The position numbers were made by a program, and so were the translations under genes. A DNA stretch of 34,723 nt from Nitrospira sp. UW-LDO-01 (GTDB lineage Bacteria > Nitrospirota > Nitrospiria > Nitrospirales > Nitrospiraceae): positions 1 through 34,723 of the forward strand of contig NIUT01000186.1 in the NCBI GenBank assembly GCA_002254365.1. Direction: 5' to 3'. Positions 3,744-31,615 of this stretch are shown one piece after another (the stretch's first letter is position 1; every line of letters begins with the position of its first letter). The notes below the pieces were generated by a model. The model did not search any database, was not told the origin of the DNA, and was given only the letters and a program-made list of their open reading frames with translations.

Positions 3744-4877
3744 TTACCCTTGAGACCTGATAAAATCCATGAATGCCTGCTTATTCTGGATCGGAGTCGT
3801 GGCCGGTCGGCCCAAATCTTTTCTGGCCCCCCGACGAACACGAATCTCCAGTAGACTAGGGCCGCTCGAGCGTTTGAGGTCTGTGAGACCGCTCGCAAGC
3901 TCCTGCTTCGTCTGAGCTCGTAAGACTTGTCCATAACCGGATGCGCGAGCAACGCCGAGAAAGTCGATCGCCAACCCCACAGTCGGTTGACCACCTACTG
4001 AATCATGTGCCCCATTGTTCAGAATAATATGCTTGAAGTTTCTTGGCTTCAACGTTCCATTGAGAGAAAGAGCTCCCATATGCATCAGCGTCGCTCCATC
4101 TCCATCCAAGCAATACACCGAACGGTCTGGCTGTTGAAGCGCAATACCGAGTGCAATGTGGGAAGCATGCCCCATGCCGCCTACGGTTAAAAAATCCCGG
4201 TGATGGCCGCTCCCTTTTTTGCGCCTGTAGTCATAAACCTCACGAGAAGGCATGCCGGTGGTCGACACAATCACATCACGATCATCCAGTCCCTCGATCA
4301 CCTGATGAATGGCCTCCTCACGCGACAGTGGGAACGACGGGCTCTCAGGCTGAAAAGCCGTAAACGGTTTGAATGTGTCCTTTTTGACAACAAGCGCGTA
4401 GGGGGTACTGGTCTTTCGTGCATGTGCCACGGCATCTTTCAAGATTGTATCCGCATGATCAAGTTCTGGCCTCAACAGGGAGAATGGAATTTCCATCGCA
4501 TCCAGCATGGGCAACATCACACGTCCCTGTTTCTTGTGTTGCGGCTCATCGTGGACGCCTGGTTCCCCCCGCCATCCGATCACAAGCAACATCGGAATAG
4601 CATAGACCTCCTGATCGGCCAAGGAGAGGAGCGGATTGATACTGTTGCCTAAACCAGAATTTTGGAAGTAGACCAACGGAATATTGCCTGTCGCCAAGTG
4701 ATATCCCAACGCCAGCGCCACAGCACCACCTTCGTTGGCGGCGACAATATGTTGATCGGCAGAACTTTCTTGTGCGATACAGGAGCACAACTCTTTTAGG
4801 AGGGAATCAGGTACCCCGCTGAAAAACCCAACGCCATTCGCCCTCAGGCACGCAACAAATTCTTGTGGATCGATCAT
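3744..4877 (-). CDS. Phosphonopyruvate decarboxylase (TPP-dependent)
   Basis: Decarboxylates phosphonopyruvate to phosphonoacetaldehyde. This irreversible step pulls the unfavourable PEP mutase equilibrium toward C-P compounds. The N-terminal pyrimidine-binding half has FFSGVPDSLLKEL (residues 18-30) and the cofactor-activating glutamate E49 in AANEGGAVALALGYH. GWRGEPGVHDEPQHKKQG (101-118) is a block I recognise in this subfamily. The C-terminal half has the TPP/Mg motif, GDG at 259-261 and NN at 287-288. The 377-residue length is normal for phosphonopyruvate decarboxylase or sulfopyruvate decarboxylase fusions and shorter than general TPP decarboxylases. The gene lies 85 bp downstream of the PEP mutase gene, which fixes the substrate assignment. 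Sulfopyruvate decarboxylase is the alternative by sequence alone. Confidence 0.92.
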   Translation of the reverse strand: MIDPQEFVACLRANGVGFFSGVPDSLLKELCSCIAQESSADQHIVAANEGGAVALALGYHLATGNIPLVYFQNSGLGNSINPLLSLADQEVYAIPMLLVIGWRGEPGVHDEPQHKKQGRVMLPMLDAMEIPFSLLRPELDHADTILKDAVAHARKTSTPYALVVKKDTFKPFTAFQPESPSFPLSREEAIHQVIEGLDDRDVIVSTTGMPSREVYDYRRKKGSGHHRDFLTVGGMGHASHIALGIALQQPDRSVYCLDGDGATLMHMGALSLNGTLKPRNFKHIILNNGAHDSVGGQPTVGLAIDFLGVARASGYGQVLRAQTKQELASGLTDLKRSSGPSLLEIRVRRGARKDLGRPATTPIQNKQAFMDFIRSQG

Positions 4878-4962
4878 GCGTTCTTATCCATTCCTTTTTT
4901 CAACCGCCTGTCGCTGACGCTTATTCGACCTGCACCACGCGAGGGCCCAGAGAGACGAAGGA

Positions 4963-6597
4963 TCAGAAGTTCCCCGCCTGAACCAGATCATCGAGACTGT
5001 TGATATCGAGCCAGTGCCCCACGGTATACAACACACGAATCGGCAACTGTCGCTTCAACAATTCCTGTAATAGGTGAGGGATCCCGGCCTTTCGATTCGA
5101 CGGATCGGCCATCATCGTCGAGAGGATGGCCTGAAGTTGGGCCGCTCCGGAAGGAGACACTTTCAGAAACCCCATCCAGACTCCATGGGTCTGCTCTCTC
5201 CCTACCGTATTCCCGAGCTGCTTCAAATAGACCTTGGCATTAAAGGCTTTCTTTGAATTCGGCAAGGAGCATTCGACAAAGCCACCGAGACGCACATAAC
5301 TGCTTTGGTTCTGCCAATCGCTATCCACGAAGATCACAAAATCCTCGTTCTCCTGACAGAGCGCTTGCGGGATGTACTTATTGAAGAGTACATCTCCGTA
5401 AGAAATGATCAAGTCCTTCGATGGGCTCTTCAGCCTGCCGAAGGCCTTCTGTAGTGAATCCAACTCACCGGTGTCGGCAAAGTCATCGTTATCCAAATAC
5501 TTCAGATTGGGCAGATTGACCGATTCCTTCTTATAACCACGGACGACCGTGATGTCCTTAATCCCTACGGCGTTGTAGGCGTCCACAATATGGGCGAGAA
5601 TCGGTGTCCCCTGAATCTTGACCATCGTCTTCGGCTGATGCTCAGTCAATTCCCGGAGTTCCTCGCCACGCGAAGCCGCCAGGACGATGGCCCCGGTGTT
5701 TTCTGCGCCTCGAGGAAGATACCGGTCTTCGGCATCCTGCAATTCCGCCGCATTCTGCAAGCGAAAGATCTCGGCAACGGGAGCCACCTTGTCCTCGATC
5801 GACAGGAGATGCTCCTGTTCTTTCAACGTCGCGGCTGTTTTCTGCATGGCCGCGACGGCGGCCCGGAGCAGGTGATTGGCCCAAATGACGATCGAAACTC
5901 CATGTTGTCGAAACACCTCGGTCGGGGTCGCATAATACTTCGTCGGCACAATTACGACGGGGCATCGATTTCCCCACTCCTGCTTGAACGACAGGATTTC
6001 ATCAGGCACCGACAGCGCGCTATGGATGAGAATCCCGTCTGCTCCGGCCTGACGATACGCCTCGGCTCGGCGAAGCGCCTCCGCCAGCCCCCAGCCGCAG
6101 ATGAAGGCTTCCACTCTGGCGATAATGCAAAAGTCAGCGTCAGTCTGTGCGTCTTTCCCCGCTTTGATCTTGCCGCAAAACTCCTGCATGTCCGCCATCG
6201 GCTGTGCATCCCCCTTGATAAAACTATTCGTCTTGGGAAACAATTTGTCTTCGATACACACGGCAGCAATACGCCGCTGCTCCAGCTTACGAACCAGCCG
6301 CTGCATGTTATTGAAATTGCCGTATCCCGTATCCCCATCGAGCAGGATAGGAATCGTGGTCGCATCGGACATGAACTCCAGATTGTCCAAAACCTGGGTC
6401 CAGCTGGCTTCATTGTTATCCCGAACCCCAAATTGAGCGGAGATCGAGAGACCACTGGCCCAAATACCTTTGAAGCCTGCCTCTTGAACGATTTTTGCAC
6501 TGAGACCATTGTGCGCTTCACAAATAAATTCCAACTGGTCCGACAAGAGAAGCTTCCGAAACTGATGCGCTGGTGTGACACCTGGGGTTGAGCTCAT
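4963..6597 (-). CDS. pepM: Phosphoenolpyruvate mutase fused to a phosphonate nucleotidyltransferase (PepM-PntC type)
   Basis: Bifunctional 544-residue enzyme. Residues about 10-290 are PEP phosphomutase, an isocitrate-lyase-superfamily barrel that forms the C-P bond by turning PEP into phosphonopyruvate. They carry LDGDTGYG (86-93) and the diagnostic [10 protein letters not shown] (116-125), which separates mutases from lyases. Residues about 300-544 are a nucleotidyltransferase domain: [20 protein letters not shown] starts at 303, [12 protein letters not shown] follows, and SYGDVLF (399-405) is the likely metal-binding site. Such fusions activate 2-aminoethylphosphonate with CTP for transfer to glycans or lipids (PntC family). 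The ATG at 6597 follows GGAAAGG with good spacing. No aminoethylphosphonate transaminase was found in the window, so the activated phosphonate is inferred. Confidence 0.93.
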
Positions 6598-6886: not shown

Positions 6887-7207
6887 ATGCGGAGAGTTCT
6901 ATGCACCATCGCTCTGACATTCTTTGCGCTCACCCTTGTGGTGACTCCGTTTGCTCTGGCTGCACCTGAGCAACAGAACAAAATGAAGGCCTGCAACGAA
7001 CAGGCGAACGTGAAAGGGTTTGGCGAAGGAAAAGGCGATGAACGGAAGGCGTTTATGAAGGAATGCCTTTCCGCCAAATCGGGGAAAGGTGGAGGCGGCA
7101 AGGAGACTCAGCGGAATAAAATGAAGACGTGCAATAAGGAAGCCGGCGATAAACAACTGAAGGGCGACGAGCGGAAGAAGTTCATGAGCGACTGCCTGTC
7201 TGCATAA
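6887..7207 (+). CDS. psiF: Small secreted PsiF-repeat protein
   Basis: A 106-residue exported protein. Residues 1-25 form a signal peptide (MRRVLCTIAL start, cleavage expected after ALA). Two PsiF-type repeats follow, each with the pattern NKMK-x-CN ... GDERK-x-FM-x-x-CL: about residues 31-64 and 78-105, joined by a glycine-rich linker (GKGGGGK). Each repeat holds two cysteines, suggesting disulfides in the periplasm. PsiF of E. coli is named for phosphate-starvation induction but its function is unknown. The ATG at 6887 has a strong AAGGAG seven bases upstream. The gene is transcribed away from pepM and is monocistronic. Family assignment is solid; phosphate regulation here is not shown. Confidence 0.88.
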   Translation: MRRVLCTIALTFFALTLVVTPFALAAPEQQNKMKACNEQANVKGFGEGKGDERKAFMKECLSAKSGKGGGGKETQRNKMKTCNKEAGDKQLKGDERKKFMSDCLSA

Positions 7208-15183: not shown

Positions 15184-16638
15184 TTACCAGCGACTCGCAG
15201 TTCTTCCGTAATCATCCTTAAAACGGACGATATCATCCTCACCAAGATACGGGCCATTCTGTACCTCGATGATATGCACGGTCTCATGCCCTGGATTTTC
15301 CAGGCGATGTTGCGTCTTCACCGGGATGGCCGTACTCTGCCCAACCTGCAAGTCAAAAATCTCTTCACCCCTGGTCACCCGTGCGGTACCGGCAATCACC
15401 ACCCAATGTTCACTGCGTTGATGATGCAGTTGGAGCGAGAGTCGCCCGCCTGGGTTGACCGTCACACGTTTCACTTTGAATCCCGGGCCCTCTTCCAACA
15501 CGGTATATGAGCCCCATGGGCGCTGAACGGTCAGATGCTCCAAATGTTCCGGCGCCTTCTGCTGTTTCAGAATATCGACGATCTTTTTCACATCCTGTGC
15601 CCGAGACTTCGGGCAGACCAACGTCGCGTCCGGTGTATCCACCACGACCATATCTTGCAATCCGATCGTCGCCACAACCCGCCTGTCGGCATAGACGATG
15701 GACCGGCGACTCTCCAGATCGACCACTCGCCCTGTCGTCACATTCCCGGCCTTATCCTTCGAGGCCACTTCATCCAAGCTCCCCCAACTCCCGACATCCG
15801 ACCATTTGAAAGTCACCGGGATCACGGCCGCCTTCGACGAGCGTTCCATCACACCATTATCGATGGAGACTGGTTTGATGGTTCGATAGAGATTTTCAAT
15901 GCCTGACTTGGGTGCCTGACTCATACGAAGTGCGCTGATTCGATCCATCGCTCTGGCAATGGCAGGTTGATGTCGGCGAATCTCTTCCAAAATCGTCGCA
16001 GCCCGCCAGATAAACATCCCGCTGTTCCAATAATAGTTGCCGGCCTTAAGATACTGCGTCGCCTTGGCAACATTGGGCTTTTCCACGAATTTGTGAACTG
16101 AGAACCCCCGCAGCTTTCCTCGTTTTCCCAATGCAACCTTGTCGTTCGGCTTGATATATCCATAACCGGTTTCCGGACGAATCGGCTTAATGCCGAAGGT
16201 CACCAAGTAACCTGCTTCCGCCAATTGACAGGCCAGTTGAACCGCCGCTTCGAAATCTCGCTGACCGGTCACCACATGATCGGCAGGTACGACCAGCATG
16301 ATTGCATCAGGATCCCGTCGCTGAGCCTCCAGAGCAGCCAAAGCAATGGCAGGGGCCGTGTTCCGTCCTTCCGGTTCCAACACGAACCCCTGAGCAAGCT
16401 CCTCTTTCCAATCGATGAGTTGCACGCGAATAAGGTCAGCTTGTGCGGCATTGGTCGAAATCAAGACATTGGCTGCCGGGGCACAGCCAAGCACACGCCG
16501 CATCGTTTGCTGAATCAAGGTATGCTCGCCGCCGATCCGCAACAGCTGCTTAGGAAACAGATGTCGGCTCAAGGGCCAAAACCTGGTCCCGCTTCCTCCC
16601 GCCATAATGACCGGATAGACGGCATGCCTGTTACCCAT
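15184..16638 (-). CDS. manC: Mannose-1-phosphate guanylyltransferase / mannose-6-phosphate isomerase (bifunctional)
   Basis: Two-domain enzyme. The N-terminal nucleotidyltransferase (about 1-350) has MAGGSGTRFWPLSRHLFPKQ (13-32) and builds GDP-mannose from GTP and mannose-1-phosphate. The C-terminal cupin (about 370-484) has VKRVTVNPGGRLSLQLHHQR, HWVVIAGTARVTRG and HRLENPG, and acts as phosphomannose isomerase on fructose-6-phosphate. At 484 residues it is the standard type II fusion. With ManB downstream it gives a full route from fructose-6-phosphate to GDP-mannose. Its start overlaps the preceding phosphatase gene by 8 bp. Confidence 0.95.
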   Translation of the reverse strand: MGNRHAVYPVIMAGGSGTRFWPLSRHLFPKQLLRIGGEHTLIQQTMRRVLGCAPAANVLISTNAAQADLIRVQLIDWKEELAQGFVLEPEGRNTAPAIALAALEAQRRDPDAIMLVVPADHVVTGQRDFEAAVQLACQLAEAGYLVTFGIKPIRPETGYGYIKPNDKVALGKRGKLRGFSVHKFVEKPNVAKATQYLKAGNYYWNSGMFIWRAATILEEIRRHQPAIARAMDRISALRMSQAPKSGIENLYRTIKPVSIDNGVMERSSKAAVIPVTFKWSDVGSWGSLDEVASKDKAGNVTTGRVVDLESRRSIVYADRRVVATIGLQDMVVVDTPDATLVCPKSRAQDVKKIVDILKQQKAPEHLEHLTVQRPWGSYTVLEEGPGFKVKRVTVNPGGRLSLQLHHQRSEHWVVIAGTARVTRGEEIFDLQVGQSTAIPVKTQHRLENPGHETVHIIEVQNGPYLGEDDIVRFKDDYGRTASRW

Positions 16639-17212
16639 TCTCCCTCCTCACTCTCCCCCTCCGCTTGTCCGCCTTCACTTCGACTCGCGATTGGAGTATC
16701 AACTCAGCGAGCTCCCTGACTGCTCCTTCGCCACCTTTCTTCTGACAGATATAGTCAACGACCTTCAACACCTGGGGAATGCCGTCTGCAGGAGCTGCCG
16801 AAAATCCCACCGCTTTCAAGGCTTCAATATCATTGACGTCGTCACCAATGTACGCCACTTGCTGAAGCGAGAGCCTGTGCCGTGCGGCCATCTCTCGGAT
16901 CACCGAGAGCTTATCCATCACGCCCTGATGGAGCTCAGGGATGGCAAGCTTTTCCGCCCGCCTGGCCACCAATCGCGTTCGCTCTTGAGTCACAATGGCC
17001 GTAATGAGCCCAGCCTTCTGCAAGAGTTTGATTCCCATCCCATCGCGGGTGTTGAACTTTTTCCATTCGTCGCCCGACTCGGAATAGTACATACCGGCAT
17101 CAGTGAGGACTCCGTCCACATCGGTGGCAAACAAACTAATTTCTTCAAGAAGAGCAGGAGAGCGTCTCTTCTGTACAGAGTGTCGTCTTGTTGGTTTATG
17201 TGGCAACGCCAA
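16631..17212 (-). CDS. KdsC-like HAD phosphatase
   Basis: HAD-superfamily phosphatase without a cap domain, of the KdsC (3-deoxy-octulosonate-8-phosphate phosphatase) group. Motif I is FATDVDGVLTDAG with D31 and D33, and motif IV is YIGDDVNDIEAL (GDD at 123-125). IVTQERTRLVARRAEKLAI replaces the VTGR stretch typical of KdsC and resembles the phosphatase region linked to sialic- or nonulosonic-acid enzymes. No kdsA, kdsB, kdsD or nonulosonate genes are present in the window. The start is uncertain: the first possible codon is a TTG at 17212 with no good ribosome-binding site. It overlaps manC by 8 bp. Confidence 0.8.
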   Translation of the reverse strand: MALPHKPTRRHSVQKRRSPALLEEISLFATDVDGVLTDAGMYYSESGDEWKKFNTRDGMGIKLLQKAGLITAIVTQERTRLVARRAEKLAIPELHQGVMDKLSVIREMAARHRLSLQQVAYIGDDVNDIEALKAVGFSAAPADGIPQVLKVVDYICQKKGGEGAVRELAELILQSRVEVKADKRRGRVRRENG

Positions 17213-17372
17213 GAGGTGTACTCGACGACTGTGGTGAAGGGTTATGATACCTGACAGATCGGACTTTGCAAAACAAAAACACGGCCCACCGATCCTGCGT
17301 TACACAAGCCTCGTTCGGAGACTTCGGCCTCACACGTGCGAACAACTCCGACCAGGACCTCAGCTGGAACAA

Positions 17373-18251
17373 TCACGTCGGCACGTCTCCCCGTGAAAGC
17401 TGAAAAGGCCTTGGTGAAAAAGCTAGGTCTCGTGCGGCATCGCCATGATCAAATACCAAGTCACGGTTCATGCGTTCGGCCATTTCCGTCGTCCAATTGC
17501 GGTATCGCGGCAGCCGACGAAGTACCGTCACCGCCAGACGAAAGAGCCATCGGGGAATGGTCGCCAGCCGTGGGTCTTTACCAAGAGCAACAAAAATGCG
17601 GCGAACCATCTCCCTGTAGGACAAAGTTTCGCCGCCTGAGAGATTATACGCCCGATTCCCAGCCACAGGCACCGTGATGGCTGACACGCAGGCCATTGCA
17701 ACATCCTCCACATGCACAGGCTGACGCAAGCCATCAGCCTGTCCCAACAACGGGAAAAATCCCCATCGATGTGCAAAGCAGGCAATCTCCGTCACATTCT
17801 TGTCCCGCCCAAACCCATAGATCAACGTCGGGCGTAAAATCACCCACTCAACTCCGTGAGCCTCTGCCCACGTACGCAGAGCCTGCTCACCGGCCTGCAG
17901 TCCTCCCACCAGCGCCTGTTCGTCCTCATCTGGCGAAGCCTTCTTTGTGAGAAGGCTCGTCGATGACAGGGCCACCACTCGACGAGCACCACTCGACCCT
18001 ATGAGCGGAAAATACTCCGGCAGCACCCAAATCGGAGCGACACATACCCATTCCGTGATGGATGGAACTTCACGAGAGGCAACCACAGAAGGCGAGAGCT
18101 GCAACCACGTCACCGTTGATTCAGCGTTGCCAGCATATGCAGACCTGGAGAAGGCAACGATCTGGCGGCCACTTTCCCTCAGTCGCCGAATCGCGCATTC
18201 GCCGACAAAACTCTGTGCCCCGAGCACCCCGATCTTGGACGATTCATCCAC
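17373..18251 (-). CDS. Atypical short-chain dehydrogenase / NAD-dependent epimerase-like protein
   Basis: Extended or atypical SDR of about 292 residues. The nucleotide-binding start IGVLGAQSFVGECAIRRL has the G-x-x-G-x-x-x-x-G pattern. WVILRPTLIYG, HVEDVAMAC and NLSGGETLSYREMVRRIF are typical of the sugar-nucleotide epimerase branch. The canonical Tyr-x-x-x-Lys catalytic pair is not evident, so it may reduce or isomerise a non-standard substrate or be a complex-I NDUFA9-like SDR. I chose the GTG at 18251, which overlaps the preceding GT2 stop by 8 bp. The longer TTG start at 18311 would overlap by 68 bp. Confidence 0.75.
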   Translation of the reverse strand: MDESSKIGVLGAQSFVGECAIRRLRESGRQIVAFSRSAYAGNAESTVTWLQLSPSVVASREVPSITEWVCVAPIWVLPEYFPLIGSSGARRVVALSSTSLLTKKASPDEDEQALVGGLQAGEQALRTWAEAHGVEWVILRPTLIYGFGRDKNVTEIACFAHRWGFFPLLGQADGLRQPVHVEDVAMACVSAITVPVAGNRAYNLSGGETLSYREMVRRIFVALGKDPRLATIPRWLFRLAVTVLRRLPRYRNWTTEMAERMNRDLVFDHGDAARDLAFSPRPFQLSRGDVPT

Positions 18252-19143
18252 GTTGAATCCCAAGATGCCGCAAGGTGGACAATGCGAAGTGATATGGGGC
18301 GATGATACCAAAGCGCAGCCAGATGCCTAACGCCACCAGCCACATCAATGGGCCTGGGTACTGATGCTGAAAAAACTTGCGATAAAACCGCATCATCCCA
18401 CGATGCTTATGCCATTCGACAAATATGGGTCGAGAGCGGCTGCACACCCCTTGATCATGCACAACTCTCGCATCGGGCACGAACATGATTTTCCACCCCT
18501 TGCGCCGTAACGCCATGCACAAGTCAAGATCTTCACAGTGCAGGAAATAGCCTTCATCCCAGGATCCGACATCTCGCATCACTTCCCGACGAACCAACAT
18601 ACAGGCACCTGAAATTGCCTCGACCTCAATAGGCTGAATCGGCAACGGTTGCTTATGTAAGTGAAAATCGAGAAACAAGCGTGGCCATCGAGCTGCCAAA
18701 CGAGACAACCCAAATGCTCGCACAAGAGACCGCCAAGGCGTTGGAATAGCCCGCCGCCCCCCCACTTGTTCCGATCCATCGGGATTCATCAATAAACCAC
18801 CCACCATTCCTACATCTGGATTATCGTCTAGCACCCGCATCAGATGCTTCACTGTGTCCGATGTCAGCATACAATCGGGGTTAAGAAAGAACAGGCAACT
18901 GCTAATGGAATGTTCAGCCCCGATATTGCAAGCCGCTGCAAATCCAAGATTCTCTCGATTACGAATAATCTTTAACCTTCGATCACCAGGAAACGCTGTT
19001 GCAAGCTTTGCTAAACTATCGTCGCTTGAGGCATTATCGACCACAACCACTTCATCCACCTGACTTAAGGCAGATGAGGCGCAGGCCCCAAGAAAGTCAC
19101 CCGCATTATAATTTACGGTTATCACTGATACGGTATTGGACAT
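18244..19143 (-). CDS. GT2-family glycosyltransferase (WbbL/rhamnosyltransferase-like)
   Basis: A 299-residue GT-A fold glycosyltransferase. It begins with VSVITVNYNAGDFL, followed by EVVVVDNASSDDSL (nucleotide-binding acidic residues), NLGFAAACNIGAE and FFLNPDCML, where N-P-D replaces the usual D-x-D as in WbbL-type rhamnosyltransferases. VEAISGACMLVRREV and GYFLHCEDLDLCMALRRKGW form the acceptor-side blocks. The C-terminus (PLMWLVALGIWLRFGIIA) is hydrophobic and probably membrane-associated. It likely adds one sugar to a lipid-linked surface glycan. The sugar donor is unknown, since no rhamnose genes are nearby. Confidence 0.9.
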   Translation of the reverse strand: MSNTVSVITVNYNAGDFLGACASSALSQVDEVVVVDNASSDDSLAKLATAFPGDRRLKIIRNRENLGFAAACNIGAEHSISSCLFFLNPDCMLTSDTVKHLMRVLDDNPDVGMVGGLLMNPDGSEQVGGRRAIPTPWRSLVRAFGLSRLAARWPRLFLDFHLHKQPLPIQPIEVEAISGACMLVRREVMRDVGSWDEGYFLHCEDLDLCMALRRKGWKIMFVPDARVVHDQGVCSRSRPIFVEWHKHRGMMRFYRKFFQHQYPGPLMWLVALGIWLRFGIIAPYHFALSTLRHLGIQRG

Positions 19144-19168
19144 TGATCATGTCTTAAGATTGCTTGCT

Positions 19169-19184
19169 CCGCATGGTGATGCGG
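19169..19184. repeat. GC-rich hairpin upstream of the GT2 gene
   Basis: Arms CCGCAT (19169-19174) and ATGCGG (19179-19184) pair perfectly around a 4-nt loop. It lies in the 264-bp gap between wzt and the GT2 gene at 18244, 26 bp before the GT2 start. It lacks a T-run on the minus strand, so it could equally be a leader hairpin or a weak terminator of the wzm-wzt transcript. No clear promoter was recognised in the rest of the gap. Confidence 0.3.
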
Positions 19185-19407
19185 GGAATGACCCACCAGA
19201 ACTCAGCTTGATCAGCATCTTGGTCTCTCAGCAAACCCCGCTAGACCTTTAATGAAGACCTAGAACACGCTAGGCCTACGCACGCAACCAGCAGACTGGC
19301 GTGTAAAGACTCTACAGGGGAACTCGGGGGAGAACTACTTTTCACTTCAGGGTATGACGATGGTTCCACTTGTGCTCTTCGGCTTGGTTCGTTTACTCGG
19401 CGACCAA

Positions 19408-20736
19408 CTACGTTGCAGTTAGCCTTTGCACCTTAGCCACATACTCCAAATTAACAAACCCATAACACCCAGGCGTGTCGGCAAATTTCAGTTTGGCAAG
19501 AGAGCGCCGCACATCCAGGAAGGTCTTCTCCCCAGTCTGTACATGGTGGCAACCGATGTTGAGGAAATACTCTCCGCCAACGACGTGTGAGCGCCAATGC
19601 AGCCGCACGAGCACGCATTCGCCGGCCGCTGCGGTCAGGTAAGGGCCTTCTGCCATTTCCGAGTTGGTGCCCGCAATGTAGGTTCCGTCCACCGATACCA
19701 GCGCGAAACCAAAGGAGACTCGCTCTAGGCTCTCTCGAAAATGCAGTTTTACCAGCAACTCGACCTCCGCATGCTCGGGGATCTCAGGCGGATCGATCAT
19801 GTCGCCGACCACAATCTCAAAATCAACCAGCCCGACCGCTCCGCTGCCCATTCTCGTTTCATGCGGGTTGTACGCAGCCCTACTCGCCGTATAATCCGTC
19901 GGGTCCGATGTCAGAATGTGCCGCTGTCCGACTACGACACGGCTCTTCACTTCAGCCTGTTGATCAGGCAAATCGACCGTTTCCTGGTGAGGCACCTGAT
20001 TACCGAACAGCAGTGCATGATAGTGCGTGACCGCCTCGGAGATAGGGCCGACATGTACCACTCTCCCTGCATCGATAACCACTCCGCGGTGGCAGATTCG
20101 CAAAAGCGTATCAGTTGCATGTGAAACAACCAAAACAGTCTTCCCTTGCTCCATGAAATCACGGATTTTCTGGTAACAACGATGTTGAAACCGTGCGTCA
20201 CCGACGCTCAGCGCTTCATCGACGATCAGTATCTCAGGATCGACGTGAATCGCGGCAGCGAAAGCAACCCGCACGAACATGCCAGAAGAATACGTCTTGA
20301 CCGGTTGATCAAAGAATTCTCCGATATCGGCAAACGCCTCGATTTCTGGCAACCCTCTCAACATCTCGCGGCGCGAGATTCCCATAATGGCACCGTTGAG
20401 GATTACGTTCTCCCGTCCGGTGAACTCAGGATTAAAGCCAGCCCCCAACTCCAGGAGAGCAGAGATACGTCCATTTACCACAACCTCGCCATGCGTCGGG
20501 TGCATCACCGAACAAATGACCTGCAATAAGGTCGACTTTCCTGAGCCGTTGCGCCCCAAAATACCGATGACCTCTCCGCGACAAATATCGAAACTCACAC
20601 CCTGCAGTGCCCAGAATTCCCGGTGATATTGTTTCCGAAATGGGTGAAGTGCTTCGAAGAGTCGCTCTTTGGATGAGGAGAAGAGCCGAAATTTCTTGGC
20701 GACCTCCCGAACGGAAATGGCTATCTCCTCCCTCAT
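19408..20736 (-). CDS. wzt: Polysaccharide ABC exporter ATPase with carbohydrate-binding C-terminus (Wzt)
   Basis: ATPase of a Wzm/Wzt exporter that carries lipid-linked glycan across the inner membrane. Walker A is GRNGSGKST (61-69), the signature is YSSGM (149-153) and Walker B is ILIVDEAL (169-176), with the switch histidine in LVVSHATDT. Residues about 270-440 form an added beta-sandwich of the Wzt C-terminal type. In E. coli O8/O9a this domain recognises a terminal cap on the polymer before export. The 442 residues match long Wzt proteins, so substrate-specific export of a modified glycan is likely. The gene starts 10 bp after wzm. Confidence 0.95.
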   Translation of the reverse strand: MREEIAISVREVAKKFRLFSSSKERLFEALHPFRKQYHREFWALQGVSFDICRGEVIGILGRNGSGKSTLLQVICSVMHPTHGEVVVNGRISALLELGAGFNPEFTGRENVILNGAIMGISRREMLRGLPEIEAFADIGEFFDQPVKTYSSGMFVRVAFAAAIHVDPEILIVDEALSVGDARFQHRCYQKIRDFMEQGKTVLVVSHATDTLLRICHRGVVIDAGRVVHVGPISEAVTHYHALLFGNQVPHQETVDLPDQQAEVKSRVVVGQRHILTSDPTDYTASRAAYNPHETRMGSGAVGLVDFEIVVGDMIDPPEIPEHAEVELLVKLHFRESLERVSFGFALVSVDGTYIAGTNSEMAEGPYLTAAAGECVLVRLHWRSHVVGGEYFLNIGCHHVQTGEKTFLDVRRSLAKLKFADTPGCYGFVNLEYVAKVQRLTAT

Positions 20737-20746
20737 GGATGGCAGC

Positions 20747-21568
20747 TCACATCACGTCGGGAAATTCAGGTTGCAAGCGGCGAAACGTGTAACTCCCCAC
20801 CATAAATACCAGTGTGCTAACCAACCAGAAATAGAGCGTTGCCCCGACGCTCGGCCACGCAGCTGAGTCAAAAATCAACAAACCTCGATACCCTTCGATG
20901 ATGTAATAAAGCGGATTAAAAAACAGTAAGTTGTGGTAGTTAGGCGGCATGATTTCTGGTGACCAAACAATTGGTGTGATCCAGAACCACATATTAAGGA
21001 TGATGGCCAGACCATGACCAATATCCCGATAGAATACTTGGAGGGCAGCGAGCAGCCATCCAAAGCCCAGCAACAACATACAACTGCAGACAAAGAAATA
21101 GACGACCGCGAGCCGCTCCACTCGAAATGCAACTCCGTAGAAAACGAGCAAGCCGGTGAAGATAAGCAGAAAAATGGCGTGCGCCCCTCCTCCTGAAACA
21201 AGGTGCACAAAAGGCAATGTTTCCGTCGGGAACACTGTCTTCTTGACAAGATGAGGGTTACTGGTAATCGACTTTGTGATGGCCTGCAGCGTTTCGTTAA
21301 AGAAGAGCCACGGGATTAACCCACAAACGAACCAGAGAATAAACGGGGCATTAGCAGGGCCTTGCGCCCGGAATCCGACTGCAAAAACAAAATAAAAAAT
21401 CACCACTATTGCAACGGGATGGATAAATGCCCAGCATATGCCTCCTATAGTGCCAGCATAGCGAGTTTCCAAATCACGCAGGGCCAGCGCCCAGATCATG
21501 CTGCGATACCGCACTAAACTGCGTGGAAGCTTCCCCAGATCAGAACGGGTTGAAACACCTGTCTTCAA
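20747..21568 (-). CDS. wzm: Polysaccharide ABC exporter permease (Wzm)
   Basis: A 273-residue ABC-2 type integral membrane protein with about six hydrophobic segments, for example IVVIFYFVFAVGF, FILWFVCGLIPWLFF, IFLLIFTGLLVFYG and VYFFVCSCMLLLGFG. MIWALALRDLETRYAGTIGG near the start is the usual interfacial helix of this family, and PEIMPPNYHNLLFFNPLYYI near the end is also conserved. The predicted start is TTG at 21568, since an ATG 24 codons later would remove the expected N-terminal tail. A purine-rich stretch (AGAGGGGAAGAG) stands upstream. It partners with the wzt product. Confidence 0.93.
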   Translation of the reverse strand: MKTGVSTRSDLGKLPRSLVRYRSMIWALALRDLETRYAGTIGGICWAFIHPVAIVVIFYFVFAVGFRAQGPANAPFILWFVCGLIPWLFFNETLQAITKSITSNPHLVKKTVFPTETLPFVHLVSGGGAHAIFLLIFTGLLVFYGVAFRVERLAVVYFFVCSCMLLLGFGWLLAALQVFYRDIGHGLAIILNMWFWITPIVWSPEIMPPNYHNLLFFNPLYYIIEGYRGLLIFDSAAWPSVGATLYFWLVSTLVFMVGSYTFRRLQPEFPDVM

Positions 21569-21587
21569 CTAATCTCTTCCCCTCTTT

Positions 21588-22415
21588 CTAACCATCGCAG
21601 ACATCCTGCACAGATACACAGCTTAGTCGACAGTCCGCCACAACCTCGCCGTAGCCTAGTGAGGTGCACAATGCATCAAGGTCAGGCGCATGATGGAACT
21701 TAAGAAAGTTGATCATGTCATAATGATGTGCCCCCAGAACCTCACCGTGACTCCCAGGTATCCCCTTTCTGAAATGTGCTCCGGTCCCACCTCGGGATGC
21801 CCGCGCCTCGCGCATAGCCCCAAGGCTGGAACTGTCGAGCAGTATCTTCATCGATTCAGGCGAGACCCTCGCATCAAGGAATGATGCCAGACAATTGACC
21901 TCCCTGCCCTTATCCATCACTAAGCGGTCGTAGACCATAATATGACACGGATACTCACGAGACCAACGTAGCATTTCTTGGATTTGATGCAAGTAGTAGC
22001 CAAAGCCATGCCAATGGAACTCTTTCGATGTCGCTCCGCAGAGCACCAACGATATCCCCTGGTCTACAGTCATACGAGCAAAGTACTCGGCCGTCCTCGT
22101 CCCGTGTCCGATTTCCTTGTCCACATCAAGCGCAAAATGGAAATACTGAGAGACTGCAAGGTCATAGATGTTGCGGACAAGAAAGATGGGTCTTGCACCA
22201 GCTTCAACAATACGCCGCTTGACCTGCTCGCTCGGCACATTGTGCCAAATGAAAAACTGGCCAGGCTCAAAGACAATGGGCTTAGCACTCTCATAATCTG
22301 CGCCAGCCGACATATCAGGCGTCAGAATATCTAGGCCTGTCATGCCCTCGATGAGATGTTCGAGCAGCTTTGTTCCTGACTTGAATACAGTCGCGACAAA
22401 AATCGGCTTCGTCAT
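21588..22415 (-). CDS. PAPS-dependent sulfotransferase-like protein 1
   Basis: A 275-residue protein of the Sulfotransfer_1 fold. The 5'-phosphosulfate loop is FKSGTKLL (residues 11-18), close to the P-K-S-G-T consensus. The 3'-phosphate site is VRNIYDLAVSQYFHF with R81, D85 and S89. The C-terminal GTGAHFRKGIPGSHGEV resembles the R-K-G-x-x-G loop that closes over PAPS. It would transfer sulfate to a hydroxyl or amine of a sugar. A cytosolic location is expected, before export by Wzm/Wzt, whose gene follows 19 bp downstream. AAAGG precedes the ATG at 22415. The acceptor is unknown. Confidence 0.85.
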   Translation of the reverse strand: MTKPIFVATVFKSGTKLLEHLIEGMTGLDILTPDMSAGADYESAKPIVFEPGQFFIWHNVPSEQVKRRIVEAGARPIFLVRNIYDLAVSQYFHFALDVDKEIGHGTRTAEYFARMTVDQGISLVLCGATSKEFHWHGFGYYLHQIQEMLRWSREYPCHIMVYDRLVMDKGREVNCLASFLDARVSPESMKILLDSSSLGAMREARASRGGTGAHFRKGIPGSHGEVLGAHHYDMINFLKFHHAPDLDALCTSLGYGEVVADCRLSCVSVQDVCDG

Positions 22416-22437
22416 TTCGATGACCTTTCAACGAGGC

Positions 22438-23286
22438 TCATAGCTGGTACCCTAGTGCCTGGAAGTTGTCTTTGGCTTCACGACTAACGATCTTTTCAAA
22501 TGCCTCGATCTGCCAGTCCGGCCATGACTGCCTAAGCTCAGCCGGATGCGCACGCAGAGTGGTCTCACCACGAAAAGGACGCCAGACCCACGTATAAATT
22601 TGGTCCAGCAATTGTTCACCATAGCTGACCCGACCGTGCGTCAGATAGCCAACGATTTCGCAAAACAGATCGCGACTGCGGACAACTTCCTCAATTGGAA
22701 TTTGCCGAATTGGCATCTTCGTGTCCCCGACCACATCGTTCATCTTTAGGAGCCCTTGATATGTCGTCCACACTGCAACATCAGTCTTCTCGTACGGCTT
22801 GAGTCCCAAACGCTTAAATAGTTCGTGATCACAGGCATACCGCCACTCATGTTCCAGTGGCCCCATTTCACCGCCCAACATCCGCATGTTCGTCACACGC
22901 CACCTGACGTGAAAAAACAGCCAGGCATAAGGATGACGGGTAAGCTGAACGATGCGCACGATATTCGGCCAGGTCTCCAACACCGGCTGCATCATCGTCG
23001 CCCGGTAAGAGTAGCAGTCGCCGATTGCAGTATACGTCATGCCGACATCAGCGATAAATCGGGAATACTTAATAAGGTCCGGGCGTTGCGCCCGCGTACG
23101 TTCCTCCGGAAAATACTTAGGTCGTGACCCCTCATTGGCCAAATAGGTCATCACCTCAGGACTCGCATTAATGGCTTTGACGAACCAGGAAAACCAGTGA
23201 TCCGCGGCATATCCCCAGGAAGTCACGTAGAATACGTGGCTCAGTGCATCGTTGACGCTGCTCCCATCAATCGGATTGGTAGCCAT
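22438..23286 (-). CDS. Divergent sulfotransferase-like protein 2
   Basis: A 282-residue protein that looks like a distant sulfotransferase. FYVTSWGYAADHWFSWFVKA (residues 19-38) occupies the place of the PAPS loop but lacks the K-S-G-T core. IVQLTRHPYAWLFF (R117) matches the 3'-phosphate site. The C-terminal pattern (DWQIEAFEKIVSREAKDNFQALGY) is the usual sulfotransferase ending. Loss of the lysine makes normal PAPS catalysis uncertain. It could be a specialised sulfotransferase or a non-catalytic partner of the neighbour 22 bp downstream, with which it shares little sequence. GGGGGGAAG stands immediately before its ATG. Confidence 0.65.
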   Translation of the reverse strand: MATNPIDGSSVNDALSHVFYVTSWGYAADHWFSWFVKAINASPEVMTYLANEGSRPKYFPEERTRAQRPDLIKYSRFIADVGMTYTAIGDCYSYRATMMQPVLETWPNIVRIVQLTRHPYAWLFFHVRWRVTNMRMLGGEMGPLEHEWRYACDHELFKRLGLKPYEKTDVAVWTTYQGLLKMNDVVGDTKMPIRQIPIEEVVRSRDLFCEIVGYLTHGRVSYGEQLLDQIYTWVWRPFRGETTLRAHPAELRQSWPDWQIEAFEKIVSREAKDNFQALGYQL

Positions 23287-23297
23287 CTTCCCCCCGA

Positions 23298-24719
23298 CTA
23301 TCGATCAAGGTCTTCAATAATTTGCAGGGCACGATGATGCCAGCAATGCCGCTGCCGAATACATTCGACTGCTTGCATGCCAACGCGTATACGCCCCTCC
23401 GAATCTTTCAGCCAGCGCGTCGCGTCCTCGTGAAAGCTTTCAACCGTATATCGTCCATAATGCACGTCGGGCTCAAACTCCGTGAGCATACCCCCGGCCT
23501 TGGTATCATGCGGTGAATCATGCATGAATATGAAGCCGCCGACCGCCATGCATTCAAGTGTCCGGCTGTGAAGTCCAAGTCCATGGGTATTGTTGCTGAG
23601 ATTGATCTTCGATCGGCAATAAACGCTGAGCAACTCACCGATGCTTTCAATAACACCCTTGTAGTAGGGTCGGGTGAAGTCATGCAAGGCAAGGCCCGAG
23701 CCATACAGCTCAAGCGAATCTGTGACACCTGCTGCGAGCTGGATCAGCAACCTGCGATCCATGATGCGTGGATACGATTGGGCAAAGTAGCTGGTCGCCC
23801 TAGCAAGAGGGCTAAGGCCGTCGGATGCGAAGTACGTTCCCTCTTTGGCAAGGAAGCGGAACACTCGTGCCTTGAAGTCTCCCCGCCCATTGAAGCGCGC
23901 AGCATACGGCTTCAACAACCTGGACAGCGTATCGGGCTCTTCAACTATTGCCTTTCCTGGCGGTTCCATCGGCACATCGGAAAACGTCTTTGACAGCTCG
24001 CCCATGGCATCGGCCAGCATATGAATATCGAGTTCGCCTCGCAAGGGGCGATAGAACCCTTCGACAACCTGCGCGATTGCAAGAAGTGCTGCATACGGAA
24101 CGTAGTCCACCGGCACATACTTGTTGAATAACAATCGACGTACTGCCCAGATCCCTTTTGAACGGCCCAAGCATGGGACGCCTCCAATCAGCTTGTCGAT
24201 ATACCACAGCAAGTCAGTACGCAGGCTTGGAGTGAGCGCAACGGGCGGCGGCAAAGCGCCGCACAGTGACATGTCTATATCCTGTACCAAACCCCGGCGT
24301 GAGAAGTTTAGCGTGGCCTCGTCAACTCCGGTAAACAGACTACCCACGCGACAAGGGATGGGGGTGACAAGACCGAGCACTGCGGCATCACCGAGCGCAT
24401 AGAGTATATCGTCCCCCCGAAAACGCTCTGCAAAGCCCGAGAGAGTTTCCGGAAACACATCCTGAAACCATGCCACATGCCGTACAATTTTCGGTAGCGG
24501 CACGGCAAGATCACGCGTCCGATTAATCTGGATCACCGTGTCGATGGACAAACTCTGACAAGCTTGGTACAACTCCACTGCCGAAAGCGGCGTTGGCATC
24601 GCGCCTGCGAAATGGCCGATCCTGTTGAAACCATCCGCAAGCCCCTGAACCATCCGCTGATCATACGGGCTCGCGACATTCGGCGTAATTAATATGCGCC
24701 TGGACTTTGATGTGCTCAT
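23298..24719 (-). CDS. CgeB-like glycosyltransferase family protein
   Basis: A 473-residue cytosolic protein. The C-terminal third fits a GT-B-type glycosyltransferase of the CgeB/Glyco_trans_1_2 group: YYKGVIESIGELLSVYCRSK, INLSNNTHGLGLHSRTLE, then CMAVGGFIFMHDSPHDT and a terminal HHRALQIIEDL. The N-terminal two thirds (ILITPNVASPYDQRMVQGLADGF onward) should be the acceptor domain but are not recognisable in detail. I chose the ATG at 24719, which overlaps the upstream GT2 stop as ATGA, over a longer frame at 24806 that would overlap by 91 bp. Expected role: sugar addition during glycan assembly. Confidence 0.75.
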   Translation of the reverse strand: MSTSKSRRILITPNVASPYDQRMVQGLADGFNRIGHFAGAMPTPLSAVELYQACQSLSIDTVIQINRTRDLAVPLPKIVRHVAWFQDVFPETLSGFAERFRGDDILYALGDAAVLGLVTPIPCRVGSLFTGVDEATLNFSRRGLVQDIDMSLCGALPPPVALTPSLRTDLLWYIDKLIGGVPCLGRSKGIWAVRRLLFNKYVPVDYVPYAALLAIAQVVEGFYRPLRGELDIHMLADAMGELSKTFSDVPMEPPGKAIVEEPDTLSRLLKPYAARFNGRGDFKARVFRFLAKEGTYFASDGLSPLARATSYFAQSYPRIMDRRLLIQLAAGVTDSLELYGSGLALHDFTRPYYKGVIESIGELLSVYCRSKINLSNNTHGLGLHSRTLECMAVGGFIFMHDSPHDTKAGGMLTEFEPDVHYGRYTVESFHEDATRWLKDSEGRIRVGMQAVECIRQRHCWHHRALQIIEDLDR

Positions 24720-25849
24720 CTGACTTGCCGACTCATTCCAACAGCAACCTTGCACGCACGAGATACGATTGTCGGATTCCATAATCGATCCCGCACTACA
24801 ACCCACCGATATGTAATGATCCTATACCAAAGCATCGGTAAAACATCGAAGGGTCGCAGGATTAAAAAAGCCATTAGGGTCCTGCTCCTAGCACTTCGCA
24901 GAAACCGCCAAAGTACGCCCAGCCATTTGCATGCCCCCTGCTCCCAGGCACCGCCGATATCAGGCCATTCATTCTCCCTTAGGGCACGGATGGCCGAGAA
25001 CCGAATACGACGACGCGTACGCTCGATAAACTGCTGACTAAACAAAGCTGGAGACAATTGGGGACCTTTGTCCGCTATGCCTTGCAACAACGTCGTCTCC
25101 AAATGCGCATGATCGGTTAAGGTCTTCCACAAGTATCCGCCATCGTGTCGCCGCATTACACCAAATGGAGCCGGACAGAATATGGCACCTTTGAGGCTAG
25201 ATATAGTCAATGCAGCAAATAGATCCGCAAGACCTCGGTACTCCAGATCAAACCCCCCGATGCCCTGGAGGGTTTCCCGATGGAACAACATGGTTGTCCC
25301 AGTGAACCAGCTTCCCACTCTGTTGGCCAAACCTACACATTCCTTCGGCGTAAAGCCTGTCTCTTGAGTAGCCACGACAGCAGACGGGAATACCTGCTCG
25401 TAGTTACCCTCCGCATCCGCCGACCAAACCATTGCCGACCACAAGCCCGTCGGCCCTAATCTGGCTATCGCAGTTTTTGCATGAGCCAATATCTCTCCAT
25501 CAAGATGGTCGTTCGACGCAAGAAAAAGCACGTAGTCACAGGTCACATACTGAAGGCCAACGTTGAGGGCGGCCATTGTCCCCACACGTTGCGAATTCAC
25601 AACAATCTGCGCTCCAGACACTCCATTCAGGTACCGCGCAGCCACGGCGACGCTTTCATCGGTCGAACCATCGTCAACAAGAATGATCTGATCAGGTCGC
25701 AGGACGAGACCAAGAACGGATTCAAGACATGCAGGGAGGTACTGGGAATCGTTGTAATTCGGAATAACGATGGCTACGGTCGGCTGACTGCGCTTCGTCA
25801 CCACTCTCTTCCAACTTGGTTGGCGGCTCTCATGCAATAGCCCATGCAC
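24716..25849 (-). CDS. GT2-family glycosyltransferase
   Basis: A 377-residue GT-A glycosyltransferase. TVAIVIPNYNDSQYLPACL (24-42), QIILVDDGSTDESVAVA, VGTMAALNVGL and DYVLFLASNDHL are the donor-binding blocks, with N-D in place of D-x-D. VGSWFTGTTMLFHRETLQGIGGFD forms the acceptor region. The C-terminus is hydrophobic and basic, suggesting membrane contact. The start is a GTG at 25849 with TTGAGGTA just upstream; no in-frame ATG exists near the N-terminus. It is coupled by a 4-bp ATGA overlap to the CgeB-like glycosyltransferase gene, so the two probably act in one assembly sequence. Confidence 0.88.
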   Translation of the reverse strand: MHGLLHESRQPSWKRVVTKRSQPTVAIVIPNYNDSQYLPACLESVLGLVLRPDQIILVDDGSTDESVAVAARYLNGVSGAQIVVNSQRVGTMAALNVGLQYVTCDYVLFLASNDHLDGEILAHAKTAIARLGPTGLWSAMVWSADAEGNYEQVFPSAVVATQETGFTPKECVGLANRVGSWFTGTTMLFHRETLQGIGGFDLEYRGLADLFAALTISSLKGAIFCPAPFGVMRRHDGGYLWKTLTDHAHLETTLLQGIADKGPQLSPALFSQQFIERTRRRIRFSAIRALRENEWPDIGGAWEQGACKWLGVLWRFLRSARSRTLMAFLILRPFDVLPMLWYRIITYRWVVVRDRLWNPTIVSRACKVAVGMSRQVR

Positions 25850-25923
25850 TACCTCAAGGGGTAATGGTCACAACGTGCCTTTTAATAAAACAGGTACTCC
25901 TCCTCGAACGCCTGGGATCTGCG

Positions 25924-27063
25924 TTAGAGGAAGTTATGATGAAGGGGTTTGGCCCCGGTACCGGGTTGAATGCGTTGGATCCCCTTAGCGTGGTTGTCCA
26001 ACGCGACACTGACATAATGCTGAATCGGAAGGGTACCCATCATCGTTTGCGCATTGAACGCCGGTGATGCCAGATAATCCATGGCGCGCCAGTACCGCGT
26101 CGACTTCCAGATATCCTTAAACCGCTCTTCGGTGAAGTTCCCGATGTGCAGCTTGGAGTAGCGCGCGTTAAAAAACATGCCGGATGGTGCCACCAGGCCG
26201 CTCCCGCTGATCTGCAACAGAAACTGCGGGCCATAGAACCGCTGATAACTTGGCTTGTCGCCATCCTTGATCTTCGTCCACTTGACGATCACCTTCGTCT
26301 GCTCATTGCTCATGGCCTCGGCTTGCTCCAAGAGGTCGTGCAGACTCTCGTACTGGCTGTAATCGATCCCGAGCGTGCCCTGCTCATCATCCGAGCAATG
26401 TTTAATCACAGCGTAATCCGCTCCGAGATCAAGCCCGAGCTGGGCGAACGGAATGATTTCGTCCTTTAAATGCGGCATCAGGACCATCTGGATGCCGAGT
26501 GTGACGGGCAAATCCATTCGCCGTTTAAAATCAATGGCGTAGCGGATATGTTCAATGGCACGATCAAATACCTGCGTATGTTCCGGACCCTTGTACATGA
26601 TACTCGCGTAACTCTCAGGGCGACCCGCCGCCACTGTGAACCGTACCCACGTCAATGAGGGTAGGACCTGCTCAATCTTCTCAGGTCCCCACTCCCATGC
26701 ATTCGTCGCATTCCCCACGTTGATTCCGAGCTTCGCCGCGTGCTGGATGAACGGCACGTACGCTTTCGACAACGTGCTTTCGCCGTCGGACACGAGCGAG
26801 ACGCTTCGAATGCCGATGTCAGCAAAATCGTCGAGAAGGTTCAACGCATGCTGCGTACTGATGCTGCTACGCGCCTGGGACTCCTGCATCATTGCGTAAC
26901 AGAATGAGCACATTGAACCGCAAGCACGGGTGAGAGACATGTCGACGCTGACAGGGGCGATTCTTGCACCGGCCTCCCATGCTTCCACCCGATCGTAATG
27001 ATAGGACAGTTTGTGCGAGTCGAGAATCAGAGCCCCTGCTCTAGTTTGAACAGCAGTCGTCAT
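25924..27063 (-). CDS. Radical SAM protein without auxiliary-cluster cysteines
   Basis: A 379-residue radical SAM enzyme. The cluster motif C-x3-C-x2-C is at C48, C52 and C55 (CGSMCSFCYAM), followed by a glycine-containing SVSLVSDGESTL block. The N-terminus LDSHKLSYHYDRVEAWEAG matches that of the other radical SAM protein encoded at 32645. The C-terminal part keeps the SPASM-like layout (GLVAPSGMFFNARYSKLHIGNFTEERFKDIW), but every cysteine expected there is gone. Reaction and substrate are unknown. It is coupled by a 4-bp ATGA overlap to the small protein encoded just upstream, which may be its partner or substrate carrier. Confidence 0.88.
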   Translation of the reverse strand: MTTAVQTRAGALILDSHKLSYHYDRVEAWEAGARIAPVSVDMSLTRACGSMCSFCYAMMQESQARSSISTQHALNLLDDFADIGIRSVSLVSDGESTLSKAYVPFIQHAAKLGINVGNATNAWEWGPEKIEQVLPSLTWVRFTVAAGRPESYASIMYKGPEHTQVFDRAIEHIRYAIDFKRRMDLPVTLGIQMVLMPHLKDEIIPFAQLGLDLGADYAVIKHCSDDEQGTLGIDYSQYESLHDLLEQAEAMSNEQTKVIVKWTKIKDGDKPSYQRFYGPQFLLQISGSGLVAPSGMFFNARYSKLHIGNFTEERFKDIWKSTRYWRAMDYLASPAFNAQTMMGTLPIQHYVSVALDNHAKGIQRIQPGTGAKPLHHNFL

Positions 27064-27398
27064 GCTTTCACCTCGATTCCGCGAAGATTGCGGAGTGAAT
27101 TTCTATCTCCTAACGCTTCAACCCATACGGTCAACCCGCCATCGACGGCCGATTTGATATAAGCCTCGAAATCCAACAGCACGGTTCCTCGATCACCCGC
27201 CGAGAGAGGCTCGTTGAGTTGTACGATGACCTGACCATCATCTTTAGCCGCAACGATCACCAGCAACCTCCGGAACTGTTCCTCACCGGCGACCATCGCT
27301 TTCTCCAGACTGGACAGACGCTCTGCTTCGGACCGTATCACCCATTCGGGAACAGGCATAGGGGTCTCGACATTGGCATGGAACAGATTACTTCCCAT
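27060..27398 (-). CDS. Small unknown protein coupled to a radical SAM gene
   Basis: A 112-residue protein I do not recognise. It is acidic and cysteine-free, without a signal peptide or membrane segment. The middle has EEQFRRLLVIVAAKDDGQVIVQL and a C-terminal alpha/beta stretch DFEAYIKSAVDGGLTVWVEALGDRNSLRNLRG. The start chosen is the ATG at 27398, preceded by AAGGGGGG at suitable spacing; a GTG nine codons earlier is possible. The stop overlaps the radical SAM ATG by four bases, and the E1 beta gene ends 29 bp upstream. Context suggests a partner, scaffold or substrate of the radical SAM or E1 enzymes, but nothing in the sequence proves this. Confidence 0.7.
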   Translation of the reverse strand: MGSNLFHANVETPMPVPEWVIRSEAERLSSLEKAMVAGEEQFRRLLVIVAAKDDGQVIVQLNEPLSAGDRGTVLLDFEAYIKSAVDGGLTVWVEALGDRNSLRNLRGIEVKA

Positions 27399-27427
27399 GG
27401 ATTCCCCCCTTGGTTGGACAGGCACGG

Positions 27428-28516: not shown

Positions 28517-29471
28517 ACACCTTCTCCCAGGCATCCTTGATAGTCGGTTTGCTGCTCGCCAGGGCAAATTCGAATGCGGCGGATACTTCTTTCCGAATCT
28601 GAGCCTCGATCCCAGTACAGGCTTGCTGATCGAGACAGCCGCTCTGCAGTAAGACTTTCCTGTACCGATCAATCGGGCAATTATTCATACCCGATTCAAT
28701 TTCCTGTACAGATCGGTACTTGAGGTGGTCATCGAAATCAGGCCCGCAGTGTTCTCGCCAACGGTAGGCATCAAACTCCAAGAACTGCGGTCCGCGCCCA
28801 TTGCGAGCATTTTCTACTGCTGTCCGTACGAGCGAGCTAACCATCTCCACATCATTGCCGTCTGCCGCGACAGCGGGCATGCCGTGGGCCTCGGCAATCC
28901 GATAGATAGGACGATTGGGCTGGCGTTCGTCGCGGCGGGTATATACGGAAAAATCGTTGTTCTCGCAGACAAAAATGATCGGTAACCGGTGTAATGCCGA
29001 GAAATTCAGCGATTCATGCACCACGCCTTCCTCAAAACACCCATCACCCAAGAAGCTCACCGTAACATCAGGAGTTCCTTTGAGCGAGGCGGCCCACGCG
29101 GAACCAACTGCTAACGGAACCGTCCCACCGACAATCGGCGTGGCGCCCATAAATCCGACATCCAAATCAACGAGATGCATGGAGCCTCCCCGGCCTCCAC
29201 AGCAACCTGTCACCCGGCCATACAGCTCAGCGACCATCGCGCTGAGATCACCACCTTTGGCCAGGTAGTGACCATGCGCGCGATGATTGCTAAACACTTT
29301 ATCCTCTTTGCGCAGAGCTGCACACACACCGACGGCAATAGCTTCTTGCCCGATACACAAGTGCATCGGGCACCGCATCATCTGTTCGGCATAACGAGTC
29401 GCCAGCGCTTCCTCGACCCGCCTGATACGGAGCATGGCACTGAACAAGCTCCTCTTGGTCTGGTCATGCAT
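28509..29471 (-). CDS. TPP-dependent E1 alpha subunit
   Basis: A 320-residue alpha subunit. SNHRAHGHYLAKGGDL, GRGGSMHLVD and the TPP/Mg motif (GDG at 142-144, NN at 171-172, in FLGDGCFEEGVVHESLNFS and VCENNDFSVY) are complete. The length and order match pyruvate/acetoin dehydrogenase E1 alpha. I chose ATG 29471, which has GAGGAG upstream, over the TTG at 29489. It forms a heterotetramer with the beta subunit encoded next, with translation coupled by an 8-bp overlap. The location inside a glycan cluster, with no E2/E3, argues against ordinary central metabolism. Confidence 0.9.
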   Translation of the reverse strand: MHDQTKRSLFSAMLRIRRVEEALATRYAEQMMRCPMHLCIGQEAIAVGVCAALRKEDKVFSNHRAHGHYLAKGGDLSAMVAELYGRVTGCCGGRGGSMHLVDLDVGFMGATPIVGGTVPLAVGSAWAASLKGTPDVTVSFLGDGCFEEGVVHESLNFSALHRLPIIFVCENNDFSVYTRRDERQPNRPIYRIAEAHGMPAVAADGNDVEMVSSLVRTAVENARNGRGPQFLEFDAYRWREHCGPDFDDHLKYRSVQEIESGMNNCPIDRYRKVLLQSGCLDQQACTGIEAQIRKEVSAAFEFALASSKPTIKDAWEKVYA

Positions 29472-29489
29472 CGGCAACCGTCTCCTCAA

Positions 29490-31013: not shown

Positions 31014-31019
31014 ACCGTA

Positions 31020-31604: not shown

Positions 31605-31615
31605 TATTCTTCTCC

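Follow-up and report, generated by a model that had tools for sequence, protein, structure and literature searches.

Several described phosphonate systems resemble parts of the gene set analyzed here. In a lichen Nostoc and in Burkholderia, clusters comprising pepM, ppd, an AEP (aminoethylphosphonate) aminotransferase, an NTP transferase, a CDP-alcohol phosphatidyltransferase and hpnL were read as phosphonolipid clusters (PMC5987646). In Treponema denticola, PntC and the aminotransferase (AEPT) are joined in one protein, Tde1415 (6PD1/6PD2; PMC6697681). Active enzymes of the PntC family carry the signature GxG(T/S)Rx4-8PK, and alanine mutants of the Treponema PntC at R15, K25 and K153 kept less than 10% of the activity (PMC6697681). 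According to the same work, one third of Ppm enzymes are PEP mutases fused to PF12804 domains. Phosphonopyruvate decarboxylase is also known as a heterodimer, RhiEF of rhizocticin synthesis, for which structures are available (9IZ3/9IZ4; PMC12141560).

The whole stretch of DNA analyzed here (the window, 34,723 nucleotides) is contig C186 of a Nitrospira assembly, G000, which has 3.9 Mb in 230 contigs and is 99.4% complete. An earlier note on this DNA had described a PEP mutase-nucleotidyltransferase fusion and a decarboxylase at 3744-6597, and both genes were confirmed by position and score. The pepM gene (4963..6597, minus strand) encodes PepM1, a protein of 544 aa in which a PEP mutase is fused to an NTP-transferase-like domain (PF13714 with PF12804/PF00483). 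The ppd gene (3744..4877) starts 85 bases downstream, likewise on the minus strand, and encodes a single-chain phosphonopyruvate decarboxylase of 377 aa. PepM1 scored 390.7 bits against TIGR02320 (cut-off 319.55) and Ppd 490.1 bits against TIGR03297 (cut-off 312.5). With both scores well over the curated cut-offs, truncation of either gene was ruled out. The best solved matches of the window Ppd were the beta and alpha subunits of RhiEF (9iz3). The pair is flanked by a convergent truA downstream and a divergent psiF-like gene upstream, so that the unit consists of two genes only. The upstream gene (6887-7207) contains a psiF repeat (PF07769); the name PsiF goes back to phosphate-starvation induction in E. 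coli.

The mutase domain of PepM1 (residues 12-283; 5749..6564, minus strand) had mussel PEP mutase (1m1b/1pym) as its best solved match (E 2.2e-117), and the mutase half aligned with this enzyme of known structure without gaps, catalytic motif included. The mutase signature reported in the earlier note was found at residues 116-125 (6223..6252, minus strand), which match EDKxxxxxNS and align to the motif of 1m1b. Among 32 aligned relatives, E116, D117, K118, N124 and S125 were invariant. A structure search with a mediocre AlphaFold model of PepM1 (mean pLDDT 67) also ranked 1pym/1s2u at the top. By motif and alignment, PepM1 is a canonical PEP mutase with predicted PEP to phosphonopyruvate activity. 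Homologues share 96-75% identity in Nitrospirales and 63-64% in a spirochaete. Of 80 relatives in named genomes, 78 are labelled Nitrospira, Nitrospirae/Nitrospirota or Nitrospirales/Nitrospiraceae, including one Nitrosospira record with the same synteny; the remaining two belong to one 'Nitrospinota' MAG and one spirochaete. Among the window genes scanned, a set that left small ORFs aside, no aminotransferase family match was obtained, and besides pepM-ppd no phosphonate-tailoring gene was recognized in the window.

The module had been described in the earlier note as lacking a transaminase. This holds for the window genes scanned but not for the genome. When G000 was searched for class V aminotransferases, eight places matched, one of which (C78:3631-4713) lies within a phosphonate operon on contig C78 (locus L171), in line with the proposal that phosphonates are made and the gene for the middle step lies elsewhere. 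The genome-wide search for a transaminase, a reductase and a transferase suggested in the earlier note thus yielded the transaminase and a candidate CDP-alcohol phosphotransferase, both on C78, and no reductase of the Fe-ADH type. Gene identities, order and co-occurrence, as well as the state of the motifs, are read directly from the DNA. The operon begins with ppdA (C78:2390-2938) and ppdB (C78:2935-3516), which encode separate alpha and beta subunits of a TPP enzyme nearest to RhiE/RhiF; each matched the corresponding subunit of RhiEF (9iz3) best. Unlike RhiEF, which serves rhizocticin synthesis, PpdA/PpdB stand in a putative lipid pathway. G000 thus carries two Ppds, the single-chain form in the window and the two-subunit form on C78. 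The AEP aminotransferase that follows scored 353.2 bits against TIGR03301, just under the curated cut-off of 360.8, and its best solved match was the Treponema PntC-AEPT protein (6pd1).

The next gene (C78:4698-5429) encodes a separate PntC-like nucleotidyltransferase (NTase), which matched 6pd1 best and then LicC. In contrast to Tde1415, PntC and the aminotransferase are two separate proteins in Nitrospira. The signature of the separate PntC reads GVGKR...PK and was counted as GxG(T/S)Rx4-8PK; GVGKRLWEVTQHRPK has G, G, R and PK, but K at the T/S position. Equivalents of Tde-PntC R15, K25 and K153 are kept. As to specificity for AEP over phosphocholine, the equivalent of E196 is kept as well, and the position of E104 is D, which differs from Tde1415 and agrees with LicC. 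Further downstream lie a CDP-alcohol phosphotransferase (C78:5454-6917; PF01066), in which the motif DxxDGxxARx8GxxxDxxxD is readable (IDCCDGEVARLTFTESPFGAWLDIALD), and a membrane protein of the HpnL/LPG_synthase_TM type by family match (C78:6898-7947). The phosphonolipid set described for Nostoc and Burkholderia (pepM, ppd, AEPT, NTPT, CDP-APT and hpnL) is therefore present in G000 in full. Unlike those clusters, it is distributed over two contigs and has Ppd in single-chain as well as two-subunit form; the C78 operon is without a 2OG-Fe(II) oxygenase and its phosphotransferase has a long N-terminal extension. The same operon order was found in 12 other Nitrospirales genomes: ppdA-ppdB-aminotransferase-pntC was kept in 13/13 operons read, and the phosphotransferase and membrane protein were present in 12/13. 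Going by predicted functions, the genome encodes every step from PEP to CMP-AEP plus a plausible transferase. Divergent from ppdA, a pair of neighbouring ORFs that resemble each other (177 and 189 aa) and contain NDPxGFxxxPWG was seen at L171:1214-2320, and ORFs similar to this pair occupy the same place in L172, L173, L174, L178, L181 and L182.

We consider it likely (probability about 0.8) that pepM-ppd of the window provide the first two steps of a single AEP pathway, the rest of which is encoded on C78 of the same genome. Every activity named in the following is inferred from sequence, as are the lipid as acceptor and what the domain on PepM1 does. PepM1 would convert PEP to phosphonopyruvate, which would be decarboxylated to phosphonoacetaldehyde by the window Ppd or by the two-subunit PpdA/PpdB (C78:2390-3516). 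The C78 aminotransferase would then form AEP, and the separate PntC-like enzyme would activate it to CMP-AEP. The CDP-alcohol phosphotransferase would pass AEP on to an acceptor with a hydroxyl group, for which a diacylglycerol-type lipid is the most likely candidate, and the HpnL/LPG-synthase-type membrane protein may help to place the product. On this reading, the NTase-like domain of PepM1 is a modified, conserved PntC relative; its probable role is to bind a nucleotide, an intermediate or a partner, not to activate AEP.

A membrane lipid is preferred over a glycan as the acceptor of AEP, with moderate confidence, because of the family membership of the C78 genes and the reading of similar clusters in PMC5987646. 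In Mycetohabitans and Roseomonas the gene kit is contiguous and carried by plasmids or large replicons; in Roseomonas it adjoins hopanoid genes. By tblastn it was largely together in Burkholderia and Cupriavidus, with single matches missing, and partly so in the spirochaete L080. Phosphatidylserine decarboxylase was found in 9/9 genomes tested, G000 included; normal phosphatidylethanolamine is thus also expected, and the idea that the AEP-lipid substitutes for phosphatidylethanolamine was rejected as needless. The earlier note had pointed to a surface glycan, and AEP could be placed on such a polymer; the exopolysaccharide whose genes lie further on in the window would be one example. In favour of this, cell-surface tailoring is the presumed role of most bacterial AEP (PMC6697681), and the window does hold a large glycan cluster. 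We regard a glycan acceptor as unlikely, since the scanned genes of the window and of C78 showed no LicD-type domain and PntC is adjoined by the CDP-alcohol phosphotransferase and the HpnL-type gene. Moreover, pepM has other neighbours in loci such as L014 and L044, so that nearness to glycan genes is not kept across the order.

The glycan cluster itself (15184-34723) contains radical SAM proteins, ABC export genes (19408-21568), a sulfotransferase (21588-22415), a dehydrogenase-E1 pair (27428-29489) and an APS kinase that runs to the contig end (34283-34723); its content suggests a sulfated polymer. Within its span lie an HldE-like gene (29490-31013) with reversed domains, the cytidylyltransferase (residues 29-117) preceding the PfkB kinase (residues 194-485), and an adjoining SIS-domain gene (31020-31676).

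The C-terminal domain of PepM1 (residues 301-544; 4966..5697, minus strand) had been assigned to the PntC type and to the activation of AEP. The assignment to the domain family stands (PF12804/PF00483; best solved match LicC 1jyk, E 2.9e-8), but the nucleotidyltransferase signature is altered, which makes activation of AEP by this domain doubtful. In place of the GxG(T/S)R of active enzymes, residues 309-313 read SRGEE (5659..5673, minus strand), while the PK of the signature is retained. With pLDDT below 50 at residues 310-318, the AlphaFold model does not allow the altered loop to be judged. We compared 80 sequences, the window and 79 relatives. R310, G311, K323 of the PK motif and D402 were invariant (80/80), and S309 and E313 were present in 79/80, the exception being the spirochaete with A and D. 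The signature arginine is thereby replaced by E in 79/80 and by D in 1/80. Proteobacterial fusions show SRGxG, with G at the arginine position in Burkholderiales, and the fused domain of PepM2, a divergent putative mutase, shows GFEKQ or close variants. PepM1 shares domain order and families with the fused PEP mutases of PMC6697681; that work groups the fused domains with nucleotidyltransferases by Pfam, whereas the signature was consistently altered in the sequences examined here.

Omega values of the fused domain were 0.03-0.11 (ten computable pairs), compared to 0.01-0.05 for the mutase half. Together with the invariant altered motif, this indicates a functional modified module, and a decaying remnant was ruled out. 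Because the motif is altered and a separate PntC is present in the same genomes, the fused domain is probably not the AEP-activating enzyme. Conversely, it could be an active phosphonate cytidylyltransferase with a rearranged pyrophosphate loop, in which case the separate PntC-like protein would have another substrate. The purifying selection, the invariant K323 and metal-site aspartate D402, and the fact that NTase-PEP mutase fusions are common (PMC6697681) would all fit such an enzyme. It is nevertheless quite unlikely: at the position of R15, Nitrospirales and the spirochaete have E or D and Burkholderiales have G, the K153 position is variable in fused domains, and every cluster examined with such a fusion carries, in addition, a separate PntC whose signature is intact or nearly so.

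The relation between the two loci was examined across 197 Nitrospirales genomes, in which the aminotransferase (counted at E <= 1e-87) was present in 181. PepM1 was found in 124 genomes and PepM2 in 56, with 17 having neither. Not a single genome had both, where 35 would be expected if the two were independent (Fisher value 2e-34, not to be taken literally as the genomes are related). The exclusion holds within the window's own genus (36 PepM1, 25 PepM2, 2 neither) and is thus not merely an effect of deep lineages. In PepM2 genomes read for gene order, pepM2 lies divergent beside the ppdA operon; in several more distant genomes it is located elsewhere. In the PepM1 genome G018, a PepM2 fossil was detected beside the ppdA-aminotransferase operon (L173:12012-12526; G018:C5), with residues 11-164 at 46% identity, residues 529-559 at 90% and the middle missing. 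Three genomes of genus g3, L197 (G027), L198 (G116) and L199 (G138), which are 99-100% complete, retain ppdA-ppdB-aminotransferase; PepM, PntC, the phosphotransferase and the membrane protein were not found in them. The replacement by PepM2, the fossil in G018 and the joint absence in g3 argue that PepM1 feeds the C78 operon. Points that weigh against a single pathway are the three genes retained in g3 where no PepM was found, the presence of two Ppds in G000, the location of the loci on different contigs and the slightly low score of the aminotransferase. On this comparative pattern, the mutase is exchanged within an otherwise conserved pathway.

Distribution of the decarboxylases bears on the same point. 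The single-chain Ppd occurs in 38 genomes, every one with PepM1. This leaves 86 of the 124 PepM1 genomes without it, and in 81 of these the two-subunit Ppd is the only Ppd found, which means that the two loci must cooperate there. In G000, the Ppd beside PepM1 makes the C78 Ppd look redundant, as would be expected if the window pair supplied a separate phosphonate product, unconnected to the C78 operon. Given the 81 genomes, the mutual exclusion of PepM1 and PepM2 across the order and a window that offers no other recognized phosphonate-tailoring gene, we judge such a separate product very unlikely. Hardly credible is the reduction of phosphonoacetaldehyde to hydroxyethylphosphonate, which would then be activated, as the earlier note had considered given the absence of a transaminase from the window: an AEP aminotransferase lies in an operon with a Ppd, and a search of G000 for an iron-type alcohol dehydrogenase (Fe-ADH, the reductase type tested) found none, the sole family match being 3-dehydroquinate synthase (AroB), judged by its translation.

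At the place of EDKxxxxxNS, EDNV[YF]PKRCS was present in 12/12 PepM2 sequences read. Two PepM2 sequences had nearly the same score with TIGR02320 as with the phosphonopyruvate hydrolase model (271.4/259.2 and 276.5/272.9 bits), below the cut-off in each case. Gene context and the exclusion of PepM1 favour a mutase. We see an even chance that PepM2 with its EDN-x5-CS motif is a functional PEP mutase and replaces PepM1 in 56/197 genomes, and that in both mutases the fused NTase-like domain is conserved, non-activating and perhaps regulatory, the separate PntC being the catalyst. A published survey requires the EDK-x5-NS motif (PMC8931226), and PepM2 would consequently go uncounted in it. L190 (G026:C55) holds a third type of fused PepM with EDKLFPKVNS, which shares ∼44% identity with PepM2; a PntC-like match lies near it on the same strand.

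The earlier note had considered phosphonate decoration notable in this organism. Phosphonate capacity in Nitrospira is not new, since all Nitrospira MAGs of a previous study encoded phosphonate clusters (PMC9765116). None of the papers searched, which included few subscription titles, was found to describe the distribution over two loci, the exchange of mutases, the EDN-x5-CS variant or the altered fused domain, and the literature searched contained no paper on a Nitrospira PEP mutase. Since mutase-fused NTase domains consistently lack the arginine of the pyrophosphate loop, caution is called for in scoring such fusions as active phosphonate cytidylyltransferases. As two mutases exclude each other and one is without the textbook motif, surveys that count phosphonate producers by motif may underestimate them. 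Soils, waters and treatment plants have Nitrospira among their main nitrite oxidisers. An AEP pathway present almost throughout the order would, if true, make Nitrospira a steady source of reduced phosphorus.
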